64,000 nucleotides of DNA, from NCBI RefSeq assembly GCF_000015865.1, contig NC_009012.1, positions 2,535,081 to 2,599,080 of the forward strand. Direction: 5' to 3'. The notes below the pieces were generated by a model, which saw nothing but the letters and a program-made list of their open reading frames with translations, searched no databases and was not told the DNA's origin. This DNA comes from Acetivibrio thermocellus ATCC 27405 (lineage in GTDB: Bacteria > Bacillota > Clostridia > Acetivibrionales > Acetivibrionaceae). The translations under genes were made by a program, and so were the position numbers. Positions 32,498-38,556 of the stretch are shown here, piece by piece; position 1 is the stretch's first letter, and each line of letters begins with the position of its first letter.

Positions 32498-33358
32498 TTA
32501 TTCCTCCAGCTTACCAAGACAGCCTTCAGCTATATTCAAAACACCCTCACACTTTACATCTTTGCCCCCGACACTTACTTTAACATCCGCATTGTTAATG
32601 CTCACACTTCTAACACTGTCTATTGCATCATCTTTTGCCCTGATTTTTATCGTACCTCCGGTTATATTTACATATCCTTTGTGAGGCTCCTCCGTATTTT
32701 CCACCTTAATCCCATCGGCCTCTGCCGTAATATCAATATTTCCACCGCTTATTGTCACACTGTCATTACCTTTCAGACCGTTATTAAAAGCTTTGACGGT
32801 AATATTTCCACCTGTTATTTTCAAATCATTGCTTGTACCGATACCATTGTTAAAATTGGCGTTAACTGTCAAATTCCCATTACCCTTTATAGTAATATCA
32901 TCTCTACTGTAAATACATGCATTTGGTTTGTTATCCTGAGGATCCTCAAATTCATAGAATTCAGCATCCGTCAAAACATTGTCTTTACCGTCCGCCAACT
33001 CAATTTTTACCTTTTCGGCGCTCTTTATGTATATTGGAGCTGATTTTGTATTTGTAATGTTTACCCCATCGAGTACCAAAACAGCTTCAAATTCTTTGCC
33101 AATATCGACCAATATTTGGCCGTCGTTCCATGTTCCACTAAACGTATACATCCCTGGCTTCGTGATTTTTACTTCCCTTTCACTAACACTTAATCCGTCA
33201 ACATTGTCTGCATTAACTTTATCATTATCAAATACTATTTTTGCATTAACATCTCCCGTGGAAACTCCACTTGGCTGCACTGCCCCTTTGCCCCCACATC
33301 CTGTTAATGCCAAAGTTGTTAAAATGCTTGCTGCTAATATAAGTTTTTTAATTGACAC
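32498..33358 (-). CDS. DUF4353-type carbohydrate-binding lipoprotein
   Basis: A 286-aa lipoprotein (lipobox LTGC, Cys21) made almost wholly of a right-handed beta-helix-like repeat domain: phrases such as YIKSAEKVKIELADGKDNVL, DDITIKGNGNLTVNANFNNG, DSVTISGGNIDITAEADGIK and INITGGTIKI-like turns. This is the carbohydrate-binding domain (DUF4353/Cthe-type) usually encoded next to CotH-like kinases, as it is here (52 bases downstream of the cotH gene). It is probably exposed at the cell or spore surface. The family's biochemical ligand is not well established. It appears intact and shares an operon with the gene upstream. Confidence 0.8.
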   Translation of the reverse strand: MSIKKLILAASILTTLALTGCGGKGAVQPSGVSTGDVNAKIVFDNDKVNADNVDGLSVSEREVKITKPGMYTFSGTWNDGQILVDIGKEFEAVLVLDGVNITNTKSAPIYIKSAEKVKIELADGKDNVLTDAEFYEFEDPQDNKPNACIYSRDDITIKGNGNLTVNANFNNGIGTSNDLKITGGNITVKAFNNGLKGNDSVTISGGNIDITAEADGIKVENTEEPHKGYVNITGGTIKIRAKDDAIDSVRSVSINNADVKVSVGGKDVKCEGVLNIAEGCLGKLEE

Positions 33359-33409
33359 TTACTCCAACTCCCCTTCAGTATTTTATTATAGATTTTTTAT
33401 ATAGTATCT

Positions 33410-35803
33410 TTATATTTTTTTGAATACTGCCTCAATGCTGCAATCCCGGTCGTCAAAGAGTTTGACGGATATTGTTTGAGAATTCTTGTCCCCCACAATT
33501 TCCGCCCCCTCTATCTTCCAACCGGCAAATGCATAGCCTTCTTTAGGAATCGCAGTTACAGTTATTTCATAATCCGTATAATACTTGCCGGTCCATTTAC
33601 TGTTCGTAATGTTGTCAGGCAAGGTGTTTAACTTAATAGTGCCTTGTTCAGGATTACTAATGTTTAGCGTGACGTTGGTCAGCTTGCCTTTTAATTTGAA
33701 GAATTCAGCCATGTATTTGGTGATATAATCAAATCTGTTTTCAAAGAATATAATCATTGATTCATCAGGATTATCTGTTACTTTATATAGTTTTTCTATT
33801 ACCAAGTCTTTATTAAAATTATAGTTTGCCAGATCCATAAATGTTTTGACAAATTGTTTGCAAAACTCTTCATTTTTGATCAGGTTAGCTATAAAAGGAT
33901 CTTGATAATACTTAGCAAATGCATTAAAATCGTAGAAATAAATTACGTTATTCATATAACTTTTTATGCAATTATCCATATCAAATAGCATCCATCTCCA
34001 CTTACCGTCTTCATAGGGTTTACCAGACTTCGTATTTGCCCTCCATAGCTGAATATTTTGTCTATATGAAAAATCAACATTACCCAAATATATCTGAATA
34101 CAGTATAAATCAATTAAGCTTTTAATATCAATTTGTTCACATACATAATTATAGTTTTCTTCTACTGACAGGTCATAATTCGCCATAAATGATAATAAAT
34201 TTTTGTAATCATCAAAGCAAGTCTGTTCTCCTGATTCAAGCATATCATTTTTTATTATACTAACGTTATCTTTATCTACACCAAAATGTTCTTCAATATA
34301 ATGAGTAGAATATCTTTCCAATATCTGATATTCACCCCAGTATTCCCCGTCTATAAAAAGTGAACATGGTTTAGCTAGTTGCGTGGATATATTACGATCA
34401 GCAACCAAGCTTTGCAAAAATCCTTCTTTATAATCACAAGCACGTAAAATAAACGATTTTTGAAAAGATATTTCATCAAATAAGGGAGTTAATAATCCGC
34501 TTTGACCATCATAAAATTTTCTGGCAAATACATTAAAACTTTTAAATTGTAATTTCCTAGTGTAATTACCGCGTATTCTTATACCAAGCATTTGTTGTAA
34601 AGCTAAATTTCCTTTCTCAAAATAAAAGATTTCAGCAGGTCTTTCCCAAAGAAAGCCTCTTTTCCCCCAATTTGGTAACGGTTCTTCTCCTGCTTTCCCA
34701 CTGAGTTCCCATTGTTTGTACTCTCTTCCTTTAACATAAATGCCTTTTTCGTCATCAAATAAATTAGCCGGGTCCGTAACCAAGGAAACAACATTAGTGT
34801 TCTTATATTTATCCAATCCTACAAAATAGCTCTTAGTAACAATCTCACTACAATTCCCGTTTTTATCATATGCAACCGCTCTCACAATAGTTGCTTTATC
34901 AACTAACTCTTCGGGAAATTTTTCCTTCTGGGTAGTTGTATCCCTCTTAAGTCGATAAACATTCTCATTGGGAGTTGCATCTTTAATTAAAATCGGTCCT
35001 TCATACTTTATTGAATTCATATTAGGATCCGTGCTGTCAAGCGTATAATAAATCTCCGTACCCGGTTCGGCTGTTAATGTCAACATAAATGGTTCACTGT
35101 AAAACCCTGAGTCAGCCGAAAACACAGGAGGCTGAACAGCAATAAATTCCCTATTCTCCTCCATAGGAGTTCCTTTGGTAATTTTATAAGTGACTGTATT
35201 ATTAACTTCGAATCTGCTGTAAGATTCATCACCGTTCAATTCCGGATAGGTCACTTTGTCTATGATTTTTCCATTGGGAAGTGTGAGAAATACAGATTCA
35301 CCTTGTGAAGTCAGCTTGAAATTTGCATATATTCTATCTGTCTCGGAGCTTTCTATAACTTCATCGCCCACTGCATAAACAAGCAAGTATTCCTTTGGCT
35401 TGATCTCAACATCCCCAAAAGTATATCTAAACAAATCAGTTTTCTTATCCGACAGGCCAAACCCCATCAAGTTAATAACTCTATCCGTTGGATTGTATAA
35501 TTCTATCCAATCATAACAATCTCCATTTTCATCAGGCAAAAAACTGTTATTAACGCTGCACACTTCATTAATTACGATATTAGGCAGTAAATAGCTTGTC
35601 GGTTCAACATAATCATCCATCTTTACCTTACCGCAATGTTTGCACACATATATCGTGTAACCATATTCTTTTTCCGTAGCATCCACAGTTTGGTATTCTT
35701 CAAACTGATGTATGCTGGAATTAAGATAAAGCCCCCCCGTAAAGAAAGCAACCGATATCAACAAAGAAAATACAATAGTAACAATCCTTCTCTTCGTAAC
35801 CAT
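33410..35803 (-). CDS. CotH-type kinase protein with lamin-tail domain
   Basis: A 797-aa exported protein. N-terminal membrane segment (about 8-26), a CxxC zinc knuckle (YVCKHCGKVK), a lamin-tail domain (about 72-195: IVINEVCSVNN, DWIELYNPTD), a chitobiase C-terminal-like Ig domain (PPVFSADSGFYSEPF, TEIYYTLDSTDPN), then the CotH domain (about 400-690: LGIRIRGNYTRK, LRACDYKEGF, WGEYQILERYS, RWMLFDMDNCI with the DMD metal site), and a bacterial-repeat tail (GYAFAGWKIEGAEI). CotH is an atypical protein kinase of spore coats; clostridial relatives are often associated with cellulosomes or the surface. It forms a two-gene operon with the DUF4353-like lipoprotein. Confidence 0.87.
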   Translation of the reverse strand: MVTKRRIVTIVFSLLISVAFFTGGLYLNSSIHQFEEYQTVDATEKEYGYTIYVCKHCGKVKMDDYVEPTSYLLPNIVINEVCSVNNSFLPDENGDCYDWIELYNPTDRVINLMGFGLSDKKTDLFRYTFGDVEIKPKEYLLVYAVGDEVIESSETDRIYANFKLTSQGESVFLTLPNGKIIDKVTYPELNGDESYSRFEVNNTVTYKITKGTPMEENREFIAVQPPVFSADSGFYSEPFMLTLTAEPGTEIYYTLDSTDPNMNSIKYEGPILIKDATPNENVYRLKRDTTTQKEKFPEELVDKATIVRAVAYDKNGNCSEIVTKSYFVGLDKYKNTNVVSLVTDPANLFDDEKGIYVKGREYKQWELSGKAGEEPLPNWGKRGFLWERPAEIFYFEKGNLALQQMLGIRIRGNYTRKLQFKSFNVFARKFYDGQSGLLTPLFDEISFQKSFILRACDYKEGFLQSLVADRNISTQLAKPCSLFIDGEYWGEYQILERYSTHYIEEHFGVDKDNVSIIKNDMLESGEQTCFDDYKNLLSFMANYDLSVEENYNYVCEQIDIKSLIDLYCIQIYLGNVDFSYRQNIQLWRANTKSGKPYEDGKWRWMLFDMDNCIKSYMNNVIYFYDFNAFAKYYQDPFIANLIKNEEFCKQFVKTFMDLANYNFNKDLVIEKLYKVTDNPDESMIIFFENRFDYITKYMAEFFKLKGKLTNVTLNISNPEQGTIKLNTLPDNITNSKWTGKYYTDYEITVTAIPKEGYAFAGWKIEGAEIVGDKNSQTISVKLFDDRDCSIEAVFKKI

Positions 35804-36438: not shown

Positions 36439-36464
36439 AAAAAGCGCCTTGAATTCGGCGCTTT
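36439..36464 (-). terminator. Terminator-like hairpin after the agrD-like gene
   Basis: AAAAAGCGCC (36439-36448) pairs with GGCGCTTT (36457-36464) around a GAATTC-containing loop, with T residues on both strands. It would end the leftward transcript carrying the sensor-like and peptide genes. Confidence 0.65.
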
Positions 36465-36571: not shown

Positions 36572-36694
36572 TTATTTTTTTAGTGCCTTAGGTGTCTTTG
36601 GTTGATAAAAGATGAAAAACGAAGCTGAGCTGGCCACCATGGATGCAATCACAAATAATACCGCAGAAATTGCACCTAACACTTTGTTTTTCAT
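36572..36694 (-). CDS. AgrD-like cyclic lactone autoinducer prepeptide with serine at the ring position
   Basis: A 40-aa peptide gene, ATG 36694, preceded by AGGGGG. The layout is that of AgrD: a Lys-bearing N-terminal amphipathic/hydrophobic leader (MKNKVLGAISAVLFVIASMV), a short core, and an acidic/proline C-terminal recognition tail. The core and tail read ASSASFFIF-YQPKTPKALKK. In AgrD the pattern is C-x4 followed by [DEY]-[EQ]-P-x-x-P; here S-F-F-I-F is followed by Y-Q-P-K-T-P, so serine replaces the ring cysteine. Serine-based lactone autoinducers are known in some staphylococci (S. intermedius group). It lies 92 bases after the AgrC-like gene on the same strand. No AgrB protease is encoded in this window. 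Confidence 0.7.
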   Translation of the reverse strand: MKNKVLGAISAVLFVIASMVASSASFFIFYQPKTPKALKK

Positions 36695-36785
36695 AAATAA
36701 CATCCCCCTATTTTTTTATTTAATAGAACAAACCCCTTCCAAGTTTGTCCTATTAGCCTTAGTTAATCTTCAGTTTAATCTTTGG

Positions 36786-37667
36786 TTAATCATTATCACT
36801 CACGATTTTATTGTCTATGTCGGCCTTCATGGAATCAAGGAACTTTTTAATTTCCTCGTACTGCTTTTCTTCAACAAGAGTTTTCATATAATCTATATTT
36901 TGAATAAATTCTCTTCCGTCGTATTTTCTCTTCAGTTCCTCTTCTTTCTGGATTATCTCTCCCATTTTAAACACGCTCTTCACAAGAATAACGGTAAAAA
37001 TGATGTTAACTAAAAAGCAAAGTATGGTAAGAACTTTATTGCTGAATGTTTCAAAAATAGTAATGTTGTTAAGGAACAGACTGTATACGATAAACAAATT
37101 CATACAACTAAACGACAACTGTAAAACCAAAAACTTAACCCGGCTGGTATATGGCTTGTCCTTTTGTCTATCCATTAAATAGCGAATATTTAAATCAAAT
37201 TTGTAAATAAAATAGCATATCAATATCATTACGGCAAAATATACTAATGCAGTTGCGACCGTCACTGTCTGGCTGCTGTCAAATTCTTCTCTTGTCCATC
37301 CAAACAAAAGCATCAATGAAATCGCTATCGTTGCCTGTGCAACCGTGAAAACTATTACCATAACCAATGAGCCGACGACCGCCTCAACAATATTCACTCT
37401 GTAAATCAAGAGCATGAGAACCAAGAAGCTTATTACCTGAATTGCCGGTACAAGTATGTTTTGTATTACAATTCGATCCGTCGACCCAAAGAGGTTTTGA
37501 ATAAAAACTTGACTTGCCCTAAACACAGCCGCCGCACTGACTGCCATAACTAACACATTATAAAACTTCGCTATTTTGGGCTTGCCCAAAATCAACCACG
37601 TGAACAAAGCCATCAAAAACTGTTCCGGCAACGAAACCGCACAAAAATATATAATTGAACTCGACAT
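36786..37667 (-). CDS. AgrC-like membrane sensor without kinase ATPase domain
   Basis: A 293-aa protein with about six or seven transmembrane helices (residues 1-230) in the arrangement of AgrC/ComD peptide receptors. After the last helix comes a coiled linker (MGEIIQKEEELKRKYDGREF) and a short helical pair (IQNIDYMKTLVEEKQYEEIK) that aligns with the dimerisation region of HPK10 kinases. At the place where the phosphorylated His-Asp would stand there is Arg-Glu (GREF). The protein ends there, with no N, G1 or G2 ATP-binding boxes, so it cannot be a kinase alone. The adjacent serine-AgrD gene suggests a peptide receptor, immunity or partner role. A GGGTTCC-complement RBS precedes ATG 37667. 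Confidence 0.68.
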   Translation of the reverse strand: MSSSIIYFCAVSLPEQFLMALFTWLILGKPKIAKFYNVLVMAVSAAAVFRASQVFIQNLFGSTDRIVIQNILVPAIQVISFLVLMLLIYRVNIVEAVVGSLVMVIVFTVAQATIAISLMLLFGWTREEFDSSQTVTVATALVYFAVMILICYFIYKFDLNIRYLMDRQKDKPYTSRVKFLVLQLSFSCMNLFIVYSLFLNNITIFETFSNKVLTILCFLVNIIFTVILVKSVFKMGEIIQKEEELKRKYDGREFIQNIDYMKTLVEEKQYEEIKKFLDSMKADIDNKIVSDND

Positions 37668-37839: not shown

Positions 37840-38556
37840 TTACAGACATGATGATACAAAATATTTAAAAATATTTAAAAAAGACAAATCTCTTTTCCAC
37901 ATATGTTCCGGATGCCACTGCACTCCCACGGCAAATTTGCAATTTTTATGTTCAATTGCTTCAATTATACCGTCTTCACTTGTGCCGGTTACAATAAAGT
38001 CCGGAGCCGGTTCTCTGACAGCCTGATGATGGAAGGAATTTACGGCTATTGATTCAGCGCCGTGGGCATTTCTTACTTTGGAGCCCGCTTTAAGCATGAC
38101 TTTATGTACAGGATACCACCTTGGAGCGTTTTGTGAATGTTTAATCAGCCGCTTCTCTTTATTCTGGGAATATATATCCTGGTACAGTGTTCCTCCAAGT
38201 GCCACATTCAAAACCTGTATACCTCTGCAAATTCCAAATATCGGTTTGTCTTTCGCCACTGCTTCTTTTGCTATAAAAAGCTCCATCTTGTCACGGTGGG
38301 GAGAAATTTCTCCGTTATAACTGTAATTCCACTCTCCCCAATGCACAGCATCCACATCCGGTCCTCCCGAAAGCAAAAATCCGTCAAACTCTTCAACCAT
38401 TTGGGACAACAAACCTTCATCCTCGGTAACGGGCAAAAGAACAGGCATCCCTCCTGACAGAATTATGGCTTCACAGTATATATTATTAATATACATTTTA
38501 TTCTCATTGTAGTCAAATGAGGGCGTTATTCCAATTACAGGTTCATTTCTTCCCAT
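37840..38556 (-). CDS. Gamma-glutamyl-GABA hydrolase family (peptidase C26) protein
   Basis: A 238-aa class I glutamine amidotransferase-like hydrolase of the PuuD type, which cleaves gamma-glutamyl amides. The nucleophile is C110 in FGICRGIQVLN, and the catalytic pair is H215 and E217 in GVQWHPEHM; LLSGGPDVDAVHWGE (61-75) is also family-typical. No neighbouring putrescine-degradation genes are present, so the true substrate may be another gamma-glutamyl compound. A single-gene leftward unit, 172 bases upstream of the agr-like genes' receptor. Confidence 0.88.
   Translation of the reverse strand: MGRNEPVIGITPSFDYNENKMYINNIYCEAIILSGGMPVLLPVTEDEGLLSQMVEEFDGFLLSGGPDVDAVHWGEWNYSYNGEISPHRDKMELFIAKEAVAKDKPIFGICRGIQVLNVALGGTLYQDIYSQNKEKRLIKHSQNAPRWYPVHKVMLKAGSKVRNAHGAESIAVNSFHHQAVREPAPDFIVTGTSEDGIIEAIEHKNCKFAVGVQWHPEHMWKRDLSFLNIFKYFVSSCL

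Follow-up and report, generated by a model that had tools for sequence, protein, structure and literature searches.

The window analysed here is a stretch of 64,000 nucleotides from Acetivibrio thermocellus ATCC 27405, whose genome is a single contig of 3,843,301 bases and has A. mesophilus and A. straminisolvens among its near relatives. On the minus strand of the window, a gene for a 293-aa AgrC-like membrane protein (36786..37667) is followed 91 bases on by agrD (36572..36694), which encodes the 40-aa precursor of a serine-lactone autoinducing peptide; neither an AgrB gene nor a kinase gene was found at the locus. Between the two genes lies a hairpin (36721..36755, minus strand; z −3.0 when the intergenic sequence was folded and compared with mononucleotide shuffles) and then an TCTATTAAATAAA element. 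A TCTATTAAATAAA-like stretch 5' of agrD recurs in near relatives, many of them of the window's branch. Hairpins made of other letters occupy the same place at L010, L011, L014 and L019 (z −2.0 to −4.3, again against mononucleotide shuffles), and folding of the intergenic stretch gave no hairpin before agrD at L012, L013 and L015-L018. The hairpin or the TCTATTAAATAAA stretch could set a high level of agrD expression. A terminator-like stem-loop stands 3' of agrD (36441..36464, minus strand), detected by a pattern scan that found three in the region against 1.2 in shuffles. Upstream of the receptor-like gene is a Peptidase_C26 gene of the glutamine amidotransferase class (37840..38556, minus strand; Pfam 227 bits), which is also found upstream in many relatives of the window's branch and adjoins 13 of 57 receptors. 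Downstream of agrD, positions 32498-35803 of the window (minus strand) encode a CotH-type protein of 797 aa, which also contains Fn3_assoc and lamin-tail domains, and a Cthe_2159-type carbohydrate-binding protein.

The agrD product matched TIGR04223 with 56.1 bits (E 2.6e-15; cut-off 19) and is an AgrD, as the initial annotation had proposed. Its 40 aa are counted from the second of two in-frame ATGs, 9 nt from an AGGGGG ribosome site that the first ATG (36703) touches. The residue at the ring position is Ser, giving a core S-F-F-I-F followed by Y-Q-P-K-T-P, from which a lactone autoinducer had been predicted. This serine-lactone product has in fact been in print since 2017: according to the accessible part of PMC5322536, Clo1313_2818 of Clostridium (Acetivibrio) thermocellum has a lactone ring from S25 to F29 followed by Y30 and P35, and its cyclic pentapeptide was confirmed in supernatants by targeted LC-MS/MS. 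The window peptide is identified with the Clo1313_2818 peptide because the positions of the ring, Y30 and P35 fit, whereas those of the Cys-type paralogue do not. In the same accessible text, growth was slowed by 50 uM of the cyclic peptide but not by the linear one, suggesting that the ring is recognised by something, and the authors reported candidates for AgrB, AgrC and AgrA as not identified.

The expectation that lactones of this kind belong mainly to the S. intermedius group was not supported: the present one has been published, and 27 of the 66 related modules have Ser at that position of the ring, the other 39 having Cys and none a third residue. The receptor tree requires at least 13 Cys/Ser changes over the 57 rows in which this residue is clear, so that Ser is a recurrent alternative in the family and not an oddity.

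The adjacent protein matched no curated family over cut-off in Pfam or NCBIfam. No Pfam HATPase match was found in it, SPOB_a gave none at E ≤ 1, and the frame ends at 293 aa. Among 27 kinase-less members scanned (A3), each curated family listed was matched by one member only, the best scores being E 0.0022 (NCBIfam AgrC) and 0.0023 (Pfam). Alignment to GHKL kinases and a structure prediction, both proposed in the initial annotation, were carried out. A profile of 27 kinase-less relatives matched a second profile, built from nine full-length GHKL kinases of the order and the class, at 99.2% (hhalign) over 208 columns, which lie wholly in the membrane part. The protein is thus homologous to AgrC-type multi-helix sensors, and the original description of a receptor-like neighbour without a kinase was correct. 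Helix 1 carries an S-x-P-E motif in 51 of 57 receptors, a motif shared with the L056-type kinases and with the half-size sensors described below for L109-L112 and L114. The AlphaFold2 model (11 sequences; mean pLDDT 74.6, pTM 0.66) predicts, at moderate confidence, seven long helices and then a short cytoplasmic helix pair. A solved relative was sought by comparing the profile with PDB sequences, where the best match was a phosphate transporter at E 0.046, and by Foldseek, where the best E was 2.2; both were rejected. The search for phage relatives gave no match. To the extent covered by a literature search that reached few subscription papers and included the accessible parts of PMC5322536, PMC3880215 and PMC11210211, we found no published description of the adjacent protein or of a kinase-less AgrC beside AgrD.

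The initial annotation had read the C-terminal helix pair as dimerisation-like (DHp), with Arg-Glu in place of His-Asp. The register is as claimed, since R252-E253 occupy the positions expected for His-Asp, but the statistical likeness failed: a profile of 37 such tails set against nine genuine DHp segments yielded nothing significant (hhalign P 0.2), and we rejected the tail as an altered DHp. In 17 sequences (A1) the register holds Arg or Asn, except for L016, which has Ile, so that the phosphoacceptor His is missing, and E253, Q256 and N257 of the tail are invariant in 17/17 relatives. Other branches carry a different tail, and L052, L063 and L067 have none; therefore, a single tail-based mechanism cannot hold for all relatives. 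Some relatives in the other branch have a membrane-proximal His (HEF/HDY type; 10 rows flagged), which was rejected as a phosphoacceptor on inspection by eye, the same column also holding S, T, N and Y.

In other orders, sensors of half size (~150-160 aa) are encoded directly 5' of a separate GHKL kinase gene (L109-L112, L114 and L120), with AgrB near most of them, and this shows that a sensor part and its kinase need not share one gene. At L117-L119, half-size sensors stand beside AgrB and an agrD match, with no kinase within the stretch examined.

Kinase-less relatives free of stops were found in 13 of 14 family genomes, the source genome included (18 matches), and dN/dS was 0.07-0.18 across 12 pairs. 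In the order, 39 of 58 genomes gave a match at 1e-5, two of them (G023 and G042) through full-length kinases only. When sampling was widened to the class, 26 of 243 genomes matched at 1e-6 and 11 of these came from the order, suggesting that the kinase-less form is centred there. The peptide frame, whose absence from related genomes would have spoken against the initial annotation, recurs together with the receptor: among 69 distinct kinase-less receptors in the fetched loci (at least 50 bits and 215-345 aa), 66 have agrD within 1 kb downstream, as do all 57 receptors of at least 150 bits, and among the three with no clear agrD, L108 still shows a weak frame of agrD type that scores 13.8 bits. 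The source genome itself contains a second module, composed of a 282-aa receptor and a Cys-type agrD, near 2859273-2860365; an XRE protein is encoded at the paralogous locus L002. At another locus, L021 (G001:C3:2037276-2039887), the first helix of the receptor matches 1.7 kb upstream of the remainder with agrD still adjoining, and the gene looks as if it were interrupted by an insertion.

The pairing was also counted from the side of agrD. Among the 149 agrD genes found in 58 genomes from the order, 55 have a receptor match but no agrB next to them, 50 have agrB but no receptor match, 4 have both and 40 have neither; in total, 59/149 are beside a kinase-less receptor match and 54/149 beside agrB. 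This count used all 149 agrD rows, 119 of 123 AgrB rows (four partial or weak ones were dropped) and 62 receptor places, less full-length kinases and two fragments (G001:C3:2039789 and G050:C277), and it scored one agrD (G016:C1:3651747) as having neither neighbour though it adjoins a dropped partial AgrB. Six of the 40 agrD genes with neither neighbour were inspected, and each had a kinase-less receptor match directly upstream. In the receptor tree, which omits four near-identical kinases, L108 and L113, two long-branched kinases fall inside the kinase-less set (AU test p 0.245), and a single origin of the kinase-less form is neither shown nor rejected.

AgrB was matched in the genome only at 2812695 and 1593116, so the initial annotation was right that the window locus has none beside its agrD. 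One of these AgrBs has its own agrD and the other does not. The agrD-less AgrB is conserved, and no agrD was found with it in 10/10 family regions fetched, the source genome's included, although several of these regions end at a contig end, and a gene that by eye is nadA-like adjoins it in 8 of the 10. Of the 119 AgrBs counted across the order, 59 lie more than 1.8 kb from any agrD. No AgrB was found in four draft genomes that have a receptor match (G003, G006, G007 and G050), which counts against an AgrB acting in trans. A third agrD of the source genome, of the Cys type, and the AgrB that accompanies it (L004 1477-2285, plus strand) come after a radical SAM-like gene and are faced on the opposite strand by a GHKL kinase gene (L004 2382-3506, minus strand); this locus is mentioned in the accessible text of PMC3880215 (Cthe_1309, Cthe_1310 and Cthe_3348).

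Candidate outputs were sought near the modules and in the genome. Of the 69 receptors, 41 have an XRE-type gene no more than 400 bp away (upstream and in the same orientation in 23 cases, downstream and convergent in 16, and otherwise placed in 2), as compared with ~1.8% of random 1.1-kb stretches of 10 genomes (2 XRE matches in 400 kb), a comparison in which control and count may differ in reach because the XRE model was built from five XREs adjoining such modules and may favour them. HTH_3 has 20 matches in the 3.84-Mb source genome. None of the 13 receptors with an amidotransferase neighbour, the window receptor among them, has an XRE neighbour. The genome has two strong GHKL kinases (72 and 61 bits) and nine further HATPase matches at 22-26 bits; the genome-wide check for AgrB and AgrC suggested earlier thus returned two AgrBs and two strong kinases, none of them at the locus. 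The sole LytTR match of the genome contains stops (L203 1765-2013, minus strand, near 3014360), so that no AgrA was recognised, and it stands upstream of a 361-aa GHKL kinase. At L060 (2176-5003, minus strand), genes for a response regulator and two full-length GHKL kinases stand ~2 kb from a receptor/agrD pair, and these kinases are a possible nearby partner of that kinase-less receptor.

We favour, with a probability of about 0.4, the reading that the pair is a two-gene module in which a sensor-only receptor for the autoinducing peptide signals via another protein, which may often be the neighbouring XRE regulator. The agrD gene gives the secreted cyclic lactone pentapeptide, the step already in print (PMC5322536, accessible part), and maturation of the peptide probably falls to the agrD-less AgrB encoded elsewhere. 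The adjacent membrane protein would be the sensor half of an AgrC and would bind the ring at the cell surface, as its homology and its fixed pairing with agrD suggest. Because the receptor cannot phosphorylate, it most likely signals by contact with a partner, and its last membrane helix and cytoplasmic tail are the parts most likely to make this contact. In many relatives the partner may be the adjacent XRE-type regulator, although the XRE could instead just regulate the locus; at the window locus, where no XRE is present, a regulator or kinase encoded elsewhere may take this role. A more far-reaching version, in which a widespread and undescribed branch of receptors reads cyclic peptides without phosphorylation and passes the signal to XRE regulators while an AgrB serves several agrD genes in trans, is put forward tentatively and is less probable than the reading itself.

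The strongest competitor, which we consider doubtful, is that the protein is a co-receptor or a decoy, forming mixed dimers with a distant full-length GHKL kinase or acting as a peptide sink and so tuning or blocking kinase signalling. The 99.2% match to the sensors of full kinases, the two strong GHKL kinases in the genome, the separate adjoining sensor and kinase genes of other orders and the three tail residues kept in all 17 relatives are consistent with such a role. However, the tail has no significant likeness to DHp and is missing in some relatives, and in the contexts listed no kinase gene adjoins the modules of the family, except at L060, 2 kb off.

It is rather unlikely that the protein is a dedicated partner of AgrD and not a receptor, either helping in maturation or export or protecting the producer. 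The near-obligate pairing with agrD persists while the tail varies or is missing, which marks the membrane core as the conserved part, and protection is conceivable since the synthetic cyclic peptide slows growth (PMC5322536, accessible part). Yet that growth effect was seen in a species carrying the receptor gene, the membrane core is homologous to kinase sensors, and about as many agrD genes (50/149) stand beside agrB with no receptor match within 1.7 kb. Finally, a relic of a decayed agr operon, to which the missing kinase, AgrB and AgrA at the locus and the interrupted LytTR match might point, is highly improbable and was rejected because the relatives are stop-free in nearly all family genomes and dN/dS is low, which also disposes of the possibility raised in the initial annotation that both genes are decayed copies of orthologues with an intact kinase.

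If the adjacent protein is a sensor-only receptor, as we favour, a partner open to testing would be at hand for many agrD genes that lack a kinase, and sensing through histidine kinases would no longer be a rule without exception for such peptides. The protein provides a concrete candidate for the receptor of a lactone peptide that an industrial cellulose degrader secretes and for which, according to the accessible text of PMC5322536, no receptor had been identified. In this heat-loving, cellulose-degrading host, the retention of the pair in relatives hints at an undescribed mode of signal sensing.

The AgrD described here corresponds to Clo1313_2818 and Cthe_3383 (PMC5322536 and PMC3880215), having the same 40 aa with S25-F29, Y30 and P35 as far as the positions and lengths in the accessible texts tell. 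Cthe_3383 is placed there beside sporulation-type (CotH) genes and a CotH gene lies downstream of agrD at the window locus; from length and neighbours we infer that Cthe_3383 is the window agrD. The accessible parts of both papers make no mention of the adjacent membrane protein. The window locus shares with the agrBDCA operon an AgrD and a receptor-like neighbour but lacks agrB and agrA, AgrB being encoded elsewhere in the genome. In the split AgrC-like genes of L109-L112, L114 and L120 the sensor is likewise separate from the kinase, but there the sensor has ~150-160 aa and a GHKL kinase follows, whereas the window receptor has 293 aa and none. AgrC receptor histidine kinases (HPK10/GHKL) carry a phosphoacceptor His and an ATPase domain, both absent from the window receptor, and what the two have in common is the multi-helix sensor part.
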